DNA of 64,000 nt from an uncultured Acholeplasmatales bacterium (GTDB lineage Bacteria; Bacillota_I; Bacilli_A; Acholeplasmatales; Anaeroplasmataceae): NCBI GenBank assembly GCA_944324805.1, contig CALUXS010000009.1, positions 1-64,000 on the forward strand, read 5' to 3'. The notes under the pieces are model-generated. The model was not told the DNA's origin. It searched no databases and saw nothing but the letters and a program-made list of their open reading frames with translations. Position 1 is the stretch's first letter, and every line of letters starts with the position of its first letter. This document shows positions 21,380-33,621 of the stretch, piece after piece. A program made the position numbers and the translations under genes.

Positions 21380-21406
21380 TTGGCACTTTAGTGTTGACAG
21401 TGCTAA
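21380..21406. promoter_or_regulatory. CIRCE-type HrcA operator at htpG/hslO
   Basis: TTGGCACTT-N9-CAGTGCTAA matches the CIRCE consensus (TTAGCACTC-N9-GAGTGCTAA) at 15 of 18 arm positions with the exact 9-base spacer. It covers the htpG -35 box, the right place for repression by HrcA. Confidence 0.8.
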
Positions 21407-21422
21407 AAATGGGGTATATAAT
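21394..21422 (+). promoter_or_regulatory. Consensus sigma-A promoter of htpG
   Basis: TTGACA (21394-21399), 17 bases, TATAAT (21417-21422): a perfect consensus promoter, which would need a repressor to be kept low; the CIRCE element overlaps it. Confidence 0.92.
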
Positions 21423-21447: not shown

Positions 21448-23328
21448 ATGAAAGAAACAAAAGAATTTAAAACAGAAACGAAAAAACTATTAGATATGAT
21501 GATTCATTCAATCTATACTCATAAAGAAATTTTCTTAAGGGAACTAATTTCTAATGCAAGTGATGCGATTGATAAACGTCATTTTATGTCATTAACAGAT
21601 AGCAATATTCCTAGTGTTGACTATCAGATACTAGTAGAGGCCGATAAAGCAAAACGTACATTAACAATTACTGATAATGGAATTGGTATGTCTAAAGAGG
21701 AATTAGAAAATAATTTAGGTACTATTGCTAAAAGTGGTTCAAAAGAATTTTTAGATAACTTAGATAAAAATACACCTGAGTTAGACATTATCGGACAATT
21801 TGGTGTTGGATTCTATAGTGCCTTTATGGTTGCAAATAAAGTTGAAGTATTAAGTCATAAAGTTGGATCTGATGCTACATATTTATTCACTTCAGAGGGT
21901 CTAGAAAATTATACAATTGAATCAAGTGATGAATTAATTGATGGTACTAAAATAACTTTATATTTACGTGAAAATAAGGATGAAGAAAATTATGACGAGT
22001 TCCTTGATGAATATACTATTAAAGAATTAGTTAGAAAATATTCTGATTATGTACGTTATCCAATTAAAACTTGGGTTACAAAGTATGACAAACCAGAAAA
22101 AGGAAAAGAAACTGAAGATAACACACATTTAGAATTAGAAACAATAAATTCAATGACTCCAATTTGGAAGAAAAATAAAAGTGAAGTCAAAGAAGAGGAG
22201 TTAAATGCATTCTACAAACAAAAATTTATGGATTATCAAGATCCATTAGCTAGTATTTTTGTAAATGTTGAAGGTATGCTAACATATAACGCTCTATTAT
22301 TTATACCACGTAAGCCAATGTTTAACATGTATAGTGATAAAAATGAACGTGGATTACAATTATATACAAAAGGTGTATTTATCCTTGATAAGTGCAAGGA
22401 TTTGATTCCTGAATATTTATATTTTGTCAAAGGATTAGTTGATAGTTCTGACTTACCACTAAATATTAGTCGTGAACTTTTACAAGAAGATCGTCAAATT
22501 AAGAAAATCGCTACTAATGTAGAAAAGAAAATTCTTCAAGAATTAGGTAGAATTCTAAAAAATGATCGTTCTAAATATGAGGAGTTCTTCAAAGACTATG
22601 GTAGGGCTTTAAAATACGGATTATATGAAAATTATGGTGCAAGAAAAGAAAGTCTTGAGGATTTAATTATTCTAGAGTCATTAAATGAAAATAAAAATAT
22701 AACTTTTGCTGAATATAAAGAAAAGATGCAAGAAAATCAAAAGAATATATACTTCGTAAGTGGAAAGACAAGAGAACAAGCTCTAAATCTTCCTCAAATG
22801 AGTTTATTAAAAAAGAAAAACTATGATGTATTGATATTAAAAGATGATGTAGATGAATTTATGCTTCAAGTCATGAAAAACTATAAAGATATAGAGTTTA
22901 AATCAATTAATCAAGGTGATTTAAATTTATTAGATGAAGAAGATGCTAAAAAGATTGATACTTTAAATGAAGAAAACAAAGATTTATTAACTGCAATAAA
23001 AGAATGCTTAAAGGATGATGTCTCAGATGTTATTTTATCAAAACGTCTTGTTGATGGAGCAGTTTGTTTATCAAGCAAAGATGGCTTAAGCATTGAAATG
23101 GAAAAAATTTTGAAGGAACAAGATTCATTTGCTAAGGCAGAACGTGTCCTAGAATTGAATCCAAATCATCCTATTTTTGCAAAATTAAAAGAATTGTTTG
23201 CTGCTGATAAAAATTCTATAAATGATTATGCGTCTTTATTATATGATCAAGCATTGATTATAGAAGGTTTACAACCAAAAGATCCAGTGAAATTTGCTAA
23301 TAAGGTTTCTGAATTACTACTAAAATAA
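21448..23328 (+). CDS. htpG: Chaperone HtpG (bacterial Hsp90)
   Basis: HtpG is an ATP-dependent dimeric chaperone. The 626-residue protein has the GHKL ATPase N-domain: 'IFLRELISNASDAIDK' (N-box), 'TDNGIGMSKEEL' (G1), 'GQFGVGFYSAFMV' (G2). The middle domain includes the catalytic-loop region 'DLPLNISRELLQEDRQIKK', and a C-terminal dimerisation domain follows. ATG 21448 lies behind TTGGAGG; the reading frame extends upstream through the promoter but that part is not coding. Control by HrcA through the overlapping CIRCE is predicted; in Bacillus subtilis htpG is HrcA-independent. Confidence 0.97.
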   Translation: MKETKEFKTETKKLLDMMIHSIYTHKEIFLRELISNASDAIDKRHFMSLTDSNIPSVDYQILVEADKAKRTLTITDNGIGMSKEELENNLGTIAKSGSKEFLDNLDKNTPELDIIGQFGVGFYSAFMVANKVEVLSHKVGSDATYLFTSEGLENYTIESSDELIDGTKITLYLRENKDEENYDEFLDEYTIKELVRKYSDYVRYPIKTWVTKYDKPEKGKETEDNTHLELETINSMTPIWKKNKSEVKEEELNAFYKQKFMDYQDPLASIFVNVEGMLTYNALLFIPRKPMFNMYSDKNERGLQLYTKGVFILDKCKDLIPEYLYFVKGLVDSSDLPLNISRELLQEDRQIKKIATNVEKKILQELGRILKNDRSKYEEFFKDYGRALKYGLYENYGARKESLEDLIILESLNENKNITFAEYKEKMQENQKNIYFVSGKTREQALNLPQMSLLKKKNYDVLILKDDVDEFMLQVMKNYKDIEFKSINQGDLNLLDEEDAKKIDTLNEENKDLLTAIKECLKDDVSDVILSKRLVDGAVCLSSKDGLSIEMEKILKEQDSFAKAERVLELNPNHPIFAKLKELFAADKNSINDYASLLYDQALIIEGLQPKDPVKFANKVSELLLK

Positions 23329-29925: not shown

Positions 29926-31203
29926 ATGTTAAAAGAAAAATTAGAACACAGCCGTGTTAAAGTTACTTTTGACGTAACTCCAGAAGAATTTGAAGCGGCT
30001 TTAGATGATTCATTCAAAAAAAATAATGAAAAGGTAACTATTAAAGGCTTCCGTAAGGGTCATGCGCCTCGTGACGTTTTTGAAAAGAACTATGGCGTAG
30101 AATCATTATATACTGATGCTTTAGATTATATTTTCAACCAAAAGGTTAAAGAAATTTATGAAGACAAAGAATTAGTAAGTGAAATTGTAGGACAATTTGA
30201 ACCAAATGTTGAAGGCAATGAAAAAATTGAACGTGGTAAAGCATTCCAAGTTTCACTAAGCTTTGATGTATACCCTGAAGTTAGTTTACCAGAATACAAG
30301 GGAATTGAAGTTAAGAAAGCTGATTTAAATGTTACTGATGAAGAAGTAAATAATGCTATTGAATTACTTCGTCGTCCAAAAGCAGTTAAAAATAATAAGG
30401 CTGAGCAAGTTATTGCTTTAAACGATATTGCAGTATTTGATTTTAAAGGTTTTGTTGATGACAAGGCTTTTGAAGGTGGAGAAGCAAAAAACTATGAATT
30501 AAAAATTGGTTCTCATCAATTTATTCCTGGTTTTGAAGAACAAATGGTTGGTATGAAAGCAGGCGAAACTAAAGATGTTTTAGTTACTTTCCCTGAAAAC
30601 TATGGTGCTAAGGATTTAGCAGGAAAAGAAGCAAAATTTGTTGTTACTGTTCATGAAGTTAAAGAAGAAGTATTACCTGAATTAAATGATGAATTTGTAA
30701 AAGAATTAAAAATCGAAAATGTAAATACAGTTGAGGAATTAAAAGAATATAAGAAGCAAGAATTAGTTTCTCGTAAAGAAACAGCTGAAAAGGATCGTCA
30801 AATTGATGAAATTATCAATAAGATTCTTGATAACGCAGTTGTTGATATGCCTGAATCAATGAATTTAGAACGTGTTAACCAATTACGTAGCCAATACGAA
30901 GCTCAAGCTAAGATGTACAATATTCCTTTTGATACTTTCTTACAATTAATGGGAACTGATAAAGAAAAATTTGAAGAAAACATATTAAATCAAGGTAAAC
31001 GCCAAGCTTTATTTAATGTTGTTCTTTCAAAATTAATTGAAGTTGAAAATTTAGCACCTTCTAAAGAAGCAATTGAAGCTCACTTTGCTGAACAAAAGAA
31101 AGAATTAGCAAAAGCTACACAACAAGATTATGCTCGTGCATATTCTGATTTAGCATACAAAGCTGTTGTTGATTTCTTATTAGCTAATGCAAAAATGAAC
31201 TAA
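29926..31203 (+). CDS. tig: Trigger factor
   Basis: Ribosome-bound chaperone and prolyl isomerase meeting nascent chains at the exit tunnel. The 425-residue protein has the ribosome-docking motif as 'KGFRKGHAPRDVFEKNYG' (consensus GFRxGxxP), an FKBP-type PPIase domain (about 155-245, 'NDIAVFDFKGFVDDKAFEGG' and 'FIPGFEEQMVGMKAGE') and the C-terminal arms. Length is normal. Codon use is biased toward frequent codons, as in highly expressed genes. It has its own promoter and terminator and is followed by lon; clpX, the common Bacillota neighbour, is absent. Confidence 0.97.
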   Translation: MLKEKLEHSRVKVTFDVTPEEFEAALDDSFKKNNEKVTIKGFRKGHAPRDVFEKNYGVESLYTDALDYIFNQKVKEIYEDKELVSEIVGQFEPNVEGNEKIERGKAFQVSLSFDVYPEVSLPEYKGIEVKKADLNVTDEEVNNAIELLRRPKAVKNNKAEQVIALNDIAVFDFKGFVDDKAFEGGEAKNYELKIGSHQFIPGFEEQMVGMKAGETKDVLVTFPENYGAKDLAGKEAKFVVTVHEVKEEVLPELNDEFVKELKIENVNTVEELKEYKKQELVSRKETAEKDRQIDEIINKILDNAVVDMPESMNLERVNQLRSQYEAQAKMYNIPFDTFLQLMGTDKEKFEENILNQGKRQALFNVVLSKLIEVENLAPSKEAIEAHFAEQKKELAKATQQDYARAYSDLAYKAVVDFLLANAKMN

Positions 31204-31209
31204 TTTATA

Positions 31210-31236
31210 AAAAAGACCTCAGTGGTCTTTTTTTCT
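31210..31236 (+). terminator. Terminator after tig
   Basis: AAAAAGACC-TCAGT-GGTCTTTTT with extra T residues. Confidence 0.88.
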
Positions 31237-31241
31237 TAAAT

Positions 31242-31278
31242 CTTTTTTGGCAAACTTCTTGCATAAGTGCCAAAAAAG
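31242..31278. promoter_or_regulatory. CIRCE-like operator at lon
   Basis: An 11-bp perfect inverted repeat (CTTTTTTGGCA / TGCCAAAAAAG) with a 15-base spacer flanks the lon -35 box. Read as CIRCE geometry it is TTGGCAAAC-N9-AAGTGCCAA (31247-31273), 13 of 18 arm positions matching consensus, and shares TTGGCA with the htpG operator. HrcA or a related repressor is the likely binder. Confidence 0.6.
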
Positions 31279-31287
31279 TTATATAAT
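31259..31287 (+). promoter_or_regulatory. Promoter of lon
   Basis: TTGCAT (31259-31264), 17 bases, TATAAT (31282-31287). The -35 lies in the spacer of the inverted repeat. Confidence 0.8.
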
Positions 31288-31308
31288 ACTCGAGAAAGAG
31301 GTGAAACT

Positions 31309-33621
31309 ATGGAAGAAAATAGAACAAAATTAATTTTACCTGCAATCGCAATAAGAGGTATTGTACCACTTCCTCATAATGAATTTCGAATTGAAGTAGG
31401 ACGTGAAAATTCAGTAAAAGCTTTAGAAGAAGCTGAAAAAATGTATGGTGGTAATATACTATTATTAGTTCAAAAAGATTCAAGTGTCGTTGATGTCATG
31501 CCAGAAGACCTTGAACCAGTTGGTGTTATTGCCAAAATTATGCTGAAACTTAAGGTTCCAAATGGTAATTACAAAGTTAAGTTCAAGGTTACTGATCGTA
31601 TAAAAGTTTTAAATTATGAATTGACTAGTCCATACTTTGTCGCAAACTATGAAAAAGTTGAAACTATAAGCACAAATGATGAACAAGAAATTGCATTAAT
31701 TAGAAAAGTGCTAGATTCATACCAAAAGGAAGGTCAAATTTTTCTTTCGGCATATGAAGAAGTAGGAAGACTTTTGCAATCAGGACAAACAGGAGAAGCA
31801 ACTGCAGATATTATAGCTTTTTATTTGAAAACTTCTAATAATAAGAATAAATATTTAACAGAATTAGTATTATCTAAACGTCTTGAGTATATTTTAGAAG
31901 ATATTCAAAAAGAAAAACAAATAATTGAATTAGAAAATAAAATAAATAATGACGTTAGAAAATCTATTGATGAAAGCCAAAAAGAATATTATCTTAGAGA
32001 AAAGATGCGAGCTATACAAAATGAATTAGGTGATAAAGCGCGTCAAGATGAAGAGGTAGAAGAGTTAAGAAAAAAAATCTTAGCATCAGGTATGCCAAAA
32101 AATATTCTTGCAAAAGCAATGAAAGAACTAGAACGTTACTCTAATACTAATAATCAAATGGCCGAATCAGGAGTTATTCGCTCATACCTAGATTTATTAG
32201 TTGACTTACCTTGGGTTAAGGCAAGTGAAGATAATTCAAATTTAAAGGCTGTTGAAGAGGCTTTAGACAAAAATCACTACGGACTTAAGAAGGTAAAAGA
32301 AAGAATTTTAGAATATATCGCTGTAAAGATGATGACTAAACGTAATCCATCAACGATATTATGTTTTGCTGGTCCTCCTGGAGTTGGTAAAACATCATTA
32401 GCAAAGAGCATTGCTGAAGCTCTTGGTCGTAATTTCATTAAGCAATCTTTAGGCGGTGTTCGCGATGAATCTGAAATTAGAGGACATAGACGTACATATT
32501 TAGGTGCTTTGCCTGGAAGAATTATCAAAGGAATGAAAGATGCAGGAACTATAAACCCTGTTTTCCTTCTAGATGAGATTGATAAAATGACTTCTGATTA
32601 TCGTGGTGACCCAGCTGCTGCAATGCTTGAGGTTTTAGACCCTGAACAAAATAAAAATTTCTCTGATAATTATCTAGAAGAGCCATATGACTTATCACAG
32701 GTAATGTTCATAACAACTGCAAATAGTCTTGAAACTATTCCTGCTCCTTTACGTGATAGAATGGAAATAATAGAACTTTCAAGTTATACAGAATATGAAA
32801 AGTATAATATTGGATTCAAACATTTACTTCCTAAAGAACTTAAAAATCATGGATTAAATCCAGAAAATTTGGAAATAACTAGTGAAGCAATGACTAAAAT
32901 AATTCAAGGATATACTAGGGAAGCAGGTGTACGTGAATTAGATAGACTAATTGCCCAAATTTGTAGAAAAACAGTAAAAGATATATTAATTGATAATAAA
33001 GAAAAAACTATTATCACAGTTGAAAATTTAGAAAAATATCTTGGTAAAGTTCGTTTCTTCAACAATGAAGGAAGAGAATACAATCAGGTTGGCGTTGTTA
33101 CAGGTTTAGCATATACTTCATTCGGTGGGGATACTCTTGATATTGAGGTCACAACTTACCCTGGTAAAGGTGGTTTGATTCTTACAGGAAAATTAGGCGA
33201 TGTTATGAAGGAAAGTGCACAAGCTGCACTATCATATGTTAAAACTCATGCTGCAGAATTAGAAATATCAAATGTAGATTTTGCTAATACAGATATTCAC
33301 ATCCATGTTCCTGAAGGCGCTGTACCAAAGGATGGTCCATCTGCCGGTGTTACTCTTACTACTGCATTAGTTAGTGCATTATCTAATCGCCCTGTGTCTG
33401 CCCATATAGGTATGACAGGTGAAATCACACTTAGAGGAAGTGTATTACCTATTGGTGGTTTGAGAGAAAAATCTATTGCTGCAGTAAGGACAGGTTTAAA
33501 TAAAATATTTATTCCTAAAGAAAATGAAAGAGACCTTGATGAAGTTCCTACAGAGGTTAAAGAAAAATTAACCATTGTTCCTGTTAACAATATTGGCGAA
33601 CTTTTAAAACAAGTGTTTTAA
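31309..33621 (+). CDS. lon: ATP-dependent protease Lon
   Basis: Degrades damaged and regulatory proteins. The 770-residue protein has the N-terminal LON substrate domain ('LPAIAIRGIVPLPHNEFRIE'), AAA+ domain with Walker A 'GPPGVGKTSLAKS' and Walker B 'VFLLDEIDKM', and the Ser-Lys protease domain with the catalytic serine in 'KDGPSAGVTLTTAL' and lysine in 'LREKSIAA'. ATG 31309 fits AAAGAGGTGA; the frame extends upstream through the promoter, which cannot be coding if the TATAAT is used. Heat control through the dyad over its -35 box is inferred. Confidence 0.97.
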   Translation: MEENRTKLILPAIAIRGIVPLPHNEFRIEVGRENSVKALEEAEKMYGGNILLLVQKDSSVVDVMPEDLEPVGVIAKIMLKLKVPNGNYKVKFKVTDRIKVLNYELTSPYFVANYEKVETISTNDEQEIALIRKVLDSYQKEGQIFLSAYEEVGRLLQSGQTGEATADIIAFYLKTSNNKNKYLTELVLSKRLEYILEDIQKEKQIIELENKINNDVRKSIDESQKEYYLREKMRAIQNELGDKARQDEEVEELRKKILASGMPKNILAKAMKELERYSNTNNQMAESGVIRSYLDLLVDLPWVKASEDNSNLKAVEEALDKNHYGLKKVKERILEYIAVKMMTKRNPSTILCFAGPPGVGKTSLAKSIAEALGRNFIKQSLGGVRDESEIRGHRRTYLGALPGRIIKGMKDAGTINPVFLLDEIDKMTSDYRGDPAAAMLEVLDPEQNKNFSDNYLEEPYDLSQVMFITTANSLETIPAPLRDRMEIIELSSYTEYEKYNIGFKHLLPKELKNHGLNPENLEITSEAMTKIIQGYTREAGVRELDRLIAQICRKTVKDILIDNKEKTIITVENLEKYLGKVRFFNNEGREYNQVGVVTGLAYTSFGGDTLDIEVTTYPGKGGLILTGKLGDVMKESAQAALSYVKTHAAELEISNVDFANTDIHIHVPEGAVPKDGPSAGVTLTTALVSALSNRPVSAHIGMTGEITLRGSVLPIGGLREKSIAAVRTGLNKIFIPKENERDLDEVPTEVKEKLTIVPVNNIGELLKQVF

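Follow-up and report, generated by a model that had tools for sequence, protein, structure and literature searches.

The lon gene lies within the 64-kb stretch of DNA analysed here (the window), where it is preceded by tig, and an inverted repeat (...aaatcttttTTGGCAaacttcttgcataagTGCCAAaaaagttatataat...) overlaps its promoter. The features of the locus, all on the + strand, are listed below.

29926–31203, +, tig (trigger factor), from the gene call
31209–31233, +, hairpin AAAAAAGACC / GGTCTTTTTT with T-run, 3′ of tig, from the repeat search
31242–31252, +, left arm CTTTTTTGGCA of the perfect 11-bp inverted repeat, from the repeat search
31247–31273, +, predicted CIRCE-type lon operator TTGGCAAAC-N9-AAGTGCCAA, exact core match, conserved in the family
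31259–31264, +, TTGCAT, −35-like hexamer of lon, lying over the centre of the dyad, from the sequence
31268–31278, +, right arm TGCCAAAAAAG of the perfect 11-bp inverted repeat, from the repeat search
31282–31287, +, TATAAT, −10 box of lon, 17 bp after the −35, from the sequence
31297–31303, +, ribosome-binding site AGAGGTG of lon, from the sequence
31309–33621, +, lon, ATP-dependent Lon protease, 770 aa, ATG start at 31309

The perfect 11-bp inverted repeat reported in the preliminary description is present, and the 15-nt gap between its arms makes the strict pairing 11-N15-11. Within it, TTGGCA-N15-TGCCAA occupies 31247–31273. When the site is read in the CIRCE 9-N9-9 register (31247–31255, 31256–31264 and 31265–31273), pairing is restricted to the outer six bases of each arm, and the inner three (AAC and AAG) are unpaired.

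Compared with TTRGCACTC-N9-GAGTGCYAA, R/Y being allowed at the variable CIRCE position, the lon site carries two mismatches in the left arm and one in the right, and these 3 mismatches in 18 arm positions equal those of two hsp20 sites. Its core agrees exactly with TTRGCA-N15-TGCYAA of the CIRCE repeat TTAGCACTC-N9-GAGTGCTAA. A hand count against the strict CIRCE consensus gives five mismatches; as this exceeds the two-mismatch limit by which CIRCE was defined in M. gallisepticum (PMC4245973), the lon site is a divergent CIRCE. The affinity of HrcA for it may be low, given the unpaired inner bases of both arms and the two deviations from CIRCE in the left half.

As described earlier, a −35-like hexamer lies at the centre of the dyad, which thus covers the −35 region of a protease promoter. 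A general search for promoters missed the one at lon, because TTGCAT fits TTGACA at only 3 of 6 bases. Weak as this hexamer is, TTGCA(A/T) is nearly invariant in the spacer of the lon sites across the family. The hairpin between tig and the lon promoter is probably the tig terminator, judging from the sequence. A mechanically listed GTG at 31267 falls within the operator, and lon is unlikely to begin there.

A second dyad of this kind precedes htpG in the window.

21380–21406, +, predicted CIRCE-type htpG operator TTGGCACTTTAGTGTTGACAGTGCTAA, exact core, common to five congeners
21394–21399, +, −35 box TTGACA of htpG, inside the dyad
21417–21422, +, −10 box TATAAT of htpG, 17 bp from the −35
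21448–23328, +, htpG (Hsp90), from the gene call

In the five congeners that share the site before htpG, HtpG identity is 81–83%.

Occurrence of the core in the window and the genome

Perfect 11-bp inverted repeats are not rare in the window, in which 21 overlapping matches with loops of 0–20 were found against 2.1 in shuffled sequence. The exact core occurs twice, compared with 0.035 expected from 200 dinucleotide shuffles. When two mismatches were allowed, the core showed no enrichment in the window (6 observed, 13 expected) and was of no use there; hence only exact cores were considered further.

The genome-wide search for sites was carried out with pattern scans on the genome to which the window belongs (1.83 Mb, assembly about 96% complete). 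At a spacer of 15 the exact core occurs 8 times, in every case at a heat-shock promoter, and the reversed pattern 0 times. Over spacers 10–24 the core was found at 34 places, the 14 spacers other than 15 contributing 26 together, or fewer than 2 each; the reversed pattern summed over the same spacers gave 3 matches. Two of the eight cores are those of htpG and lon, and the remaining ones are given below.

C1:50771, clpB site, exact core, spacer 15
C3:126923–126949, hrcA-grpE-dnaK-dnaJ site, exact core, spacer 15, operon read
C4:86357 and 86409, two sites at hsp20 pair, copy 1, exact core, spacer 15
C10:32214 and 32266, two sites at hsp20 pair, copy 2, exact core, spacer 15

All the targets are protein-quality-control genes. 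The lon and htpG sites, whose relatedness had been proposed from the window, share the same exact core, and the results support their assignment as CIRCE-type operators of one predicted HrcA regulon in this genome.

The hsp20 pair is duplicated in near-identical form (C4:84857–87883, locus L004, and C10:30714–33740, locus L008), the proteins being identical between the copies. Each pair has two CIRCE sites with starts 52 bp apart, the second of which lies downstream of the promoter beside the ribosome-binding site.

Conservation of the lon site in relatives

Conservation of the dyad in relatives had been set beforehand as a test. The nearest named genomes are those of uncultured Acholeplasmatales, with Lon 80% identical, and on this basis the genome was assigned to the order. 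Among 55 genomes of the family, the 5′ end of lon was readable in 48, and all 48 have the exact core upstream of lon. At the third position of these sites and its partner, covariation is seen (40 G-C, 7 A-T and 1 A-C; Fisher 1e-7, uncorrected for shared descent). The gene order is also retained: tig precedes lon in 30/30 loci of the family and adjoins it in 29/30 loci of other families.

Of 30 genomes sampled from other families of the order, 24 have a CIRCE-like site before lon, mostly TTGGCACTC-N9-GATTGCAAA. The site is kept while its flanks diverge, in the exact form throughout the readable family genomes and in a related form in most of those sampled from the rest of the order. The six sampled genomes with no site upstream of lon comprise two of family f3, two small phytoplasma-like genomes and two others. 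Five distant relatives that have names and belong to other orders (L019, L020, L021, L029 and L060) showed no site when the region upstream of lon was inspected.

The other members of the predicted regulon were followed in six congeners, which hold 40 exact cores. By hand count 34 of these are at hrcA, clpB, lon, htpG, hsp20 or groESL. A further core probably belongs to groES, and the five without an assigned gene represent background. The predicted regulon is common to the six congeners.

Two further observations were made among the relatives. In one congener (G035, about 91% complete), HrcA and CIRCE sites are present and a full lon match is absent. At locus L139 (G013:C33:4450-5070) the lon site reads TTAGCACTCTTGTCCAAAAAGTGCTAA, in which the left CIRCE half is perfect; next to it on the 3′ side comes aacttgcaaaag, a stretch similar to the interior of the site common in the family.

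The candidate regulator and other readings of the dyad

HrcA is encoded once in the genome (C3:125899–126555, E 6.6e-44), and its own operon carries a copy of the operator at C3:126923–126949. The protein was found in 51/55 genomes of the family and in all 31 of the good ones. GroE maintains the activity of HrcA in B. subtilis (Mogk et al. 1997, cited in PMC7737663), and loss of GroEL is known in Acholeplasma (PMC4221730). In the present assembly (about 96% complete) a search for GroEL, which in B. subtilis is the partner of HrcA, gave no match. This absence may be an assembly gap, since 7/7 congeners have groEL, at least five of them with the same CIRCE-type operator; real loss is the alternative.

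Another heat-shock repressor such as CtsR, which regulates protease genes in many Firmicutes, could bind the lon dyad, a result that had been named at the outset as refuting the HrcA reading. Such binding is very unlikely. The two CtsR domain models, PF05848 and PF17727, had no match in the genome at its completeness of about 96%, which amounts to moderate evidence because the control search was positive in Lactococcus lactis alone. CtsR boxes consist of a heptad repeated in direct orientation and are not dyads of the lon type. Moreover, the motif found at lon precedes hrcA itself, clpB, hsp20 and htpG, and also groESL in congeners. With no ctsR gene found in the genome, CtsR was rejected as the regulator of lon.

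Even less probable is a function of the dyad in RNA, as the hairpin of a terminator or leader element, in place of that of a DNA operator. A perfect 11-bp stem does exist at the site. However, the dyad covers the −35 region and therefore lies upstream of the predicted start of the lon transcript, and tig has a hairpin and T-run of its own at 31209–31233. Conservation extends to the core and the fixed 15-nt spacer and not to the flanking T/A extension, a pattern that fits a protein dimer and not a stem. The hairpin reading was rejected on account of the wrong position and the separate hairpin of tig. A chance resemblance to CIRCE is hardly credible, for although the genome is AT-rich, perfect 11-bp repeats are not rare in the window and the two-mismatch core is unenriched, the excess of exact cores, the spacer control and the conservation in 48/48 readable family genomes rule it out.

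Thus 31247–31273 is very probably the CIRCE operator of lon, at which bound HrcA would repress transcription. A dimer of HrcA, produced from its gene on contig C3, would bind both half-sites over the −35 region and block RNA polymerase at lon. Under heat or protein-misfolding stress HrcA would become inactive, and lon would be derepressed along with clpB, hrcA-grpE-dnaK-dnaJ, the hsp20 pairs and htpG.

Known HrcA systems and the weak half of the lon operator

The classical targets of CIRCE/HrcA in B. subtilis are hrcA-grpE-dnaK-dnaJ and groESL; neither lon nor htpG is known to be controlled by HrcA in that organism. The predicted system described here resembles that of B. subtilis in dyad geometry, autoregulation of the hrcA operon and the repressor family, and differs in the common half-site, which is TTGGCACT and not TTAGCACT. 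As an HrcA target, htpG is less familiar than lon.

In Mollicutes, lon has been reported under CIRCE/HrcA in M. pneumoniae (PMC7737663), in M. gallisepticum (PMC4245973) and in Spiroplasma melliferum (PMC5138195). The preliminary description had regarded lon as an unusual target and a sign of a newly expanded regulon; with these three published cases and the wide occurrence of the site in the order, that view does not hold for this lineage. The likeness to M. pneumoniae includes the order of tig (MPN331), operator and lon (MPN332), with HrcA as the named regulator (PMC7737663), whereas the site here is the variant TTGGCAAAC-N9-AAGTGCCAA, known from its sequence. Lon, clpB and the dnaK operon are under CIRCE in M. 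gallisepticum and S. melliferum as well (PMC4245973, PMC5138195), and to these the predicted regulon here adds htpG and the hsp20 pairs (groESL in congeners). In A. laidlawii, heat raises HrcA-dependent promoters, as a class, about 100-fold (PMC5138195).

The reading of the lon dyad as a real and strongly conserved site of the HrcA type, that is, as CIRCE under HrcA, is well supported by these comparisons of sequence. Since HrcA control of lon is already known in the wall-less group, the site is an ordinary one in a known system and leaves the general picture of heat-shock control unchanged. The results yield a clean predicted regulon in a lineage of Acholeplasmatales that has not been cultured. 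They indicate that HrcA control of lon reaches the order, beyond mycoplasmas and spiroplasmas.

The weak half of the lon operator is the left one in the family studied and the right one in other families of the order, as follows from the form TTGGCACTC-N9-GATTGCAAA prevailing in the latter. The degenerate half in these other families (TTGCAA) itself looks like a −35 box. A tentative and rather doubtful explanation would be that the operator is kept weak on purpose throughout the order, through opposite halves in different families, because basal lon is needed and the −35 shares the site. If so, lon would be among the first genes to be derepressed under mild stress. The consistent half-degeneracy, with a weak half that varies by family, is a mild novelty and bears on operator tuning.
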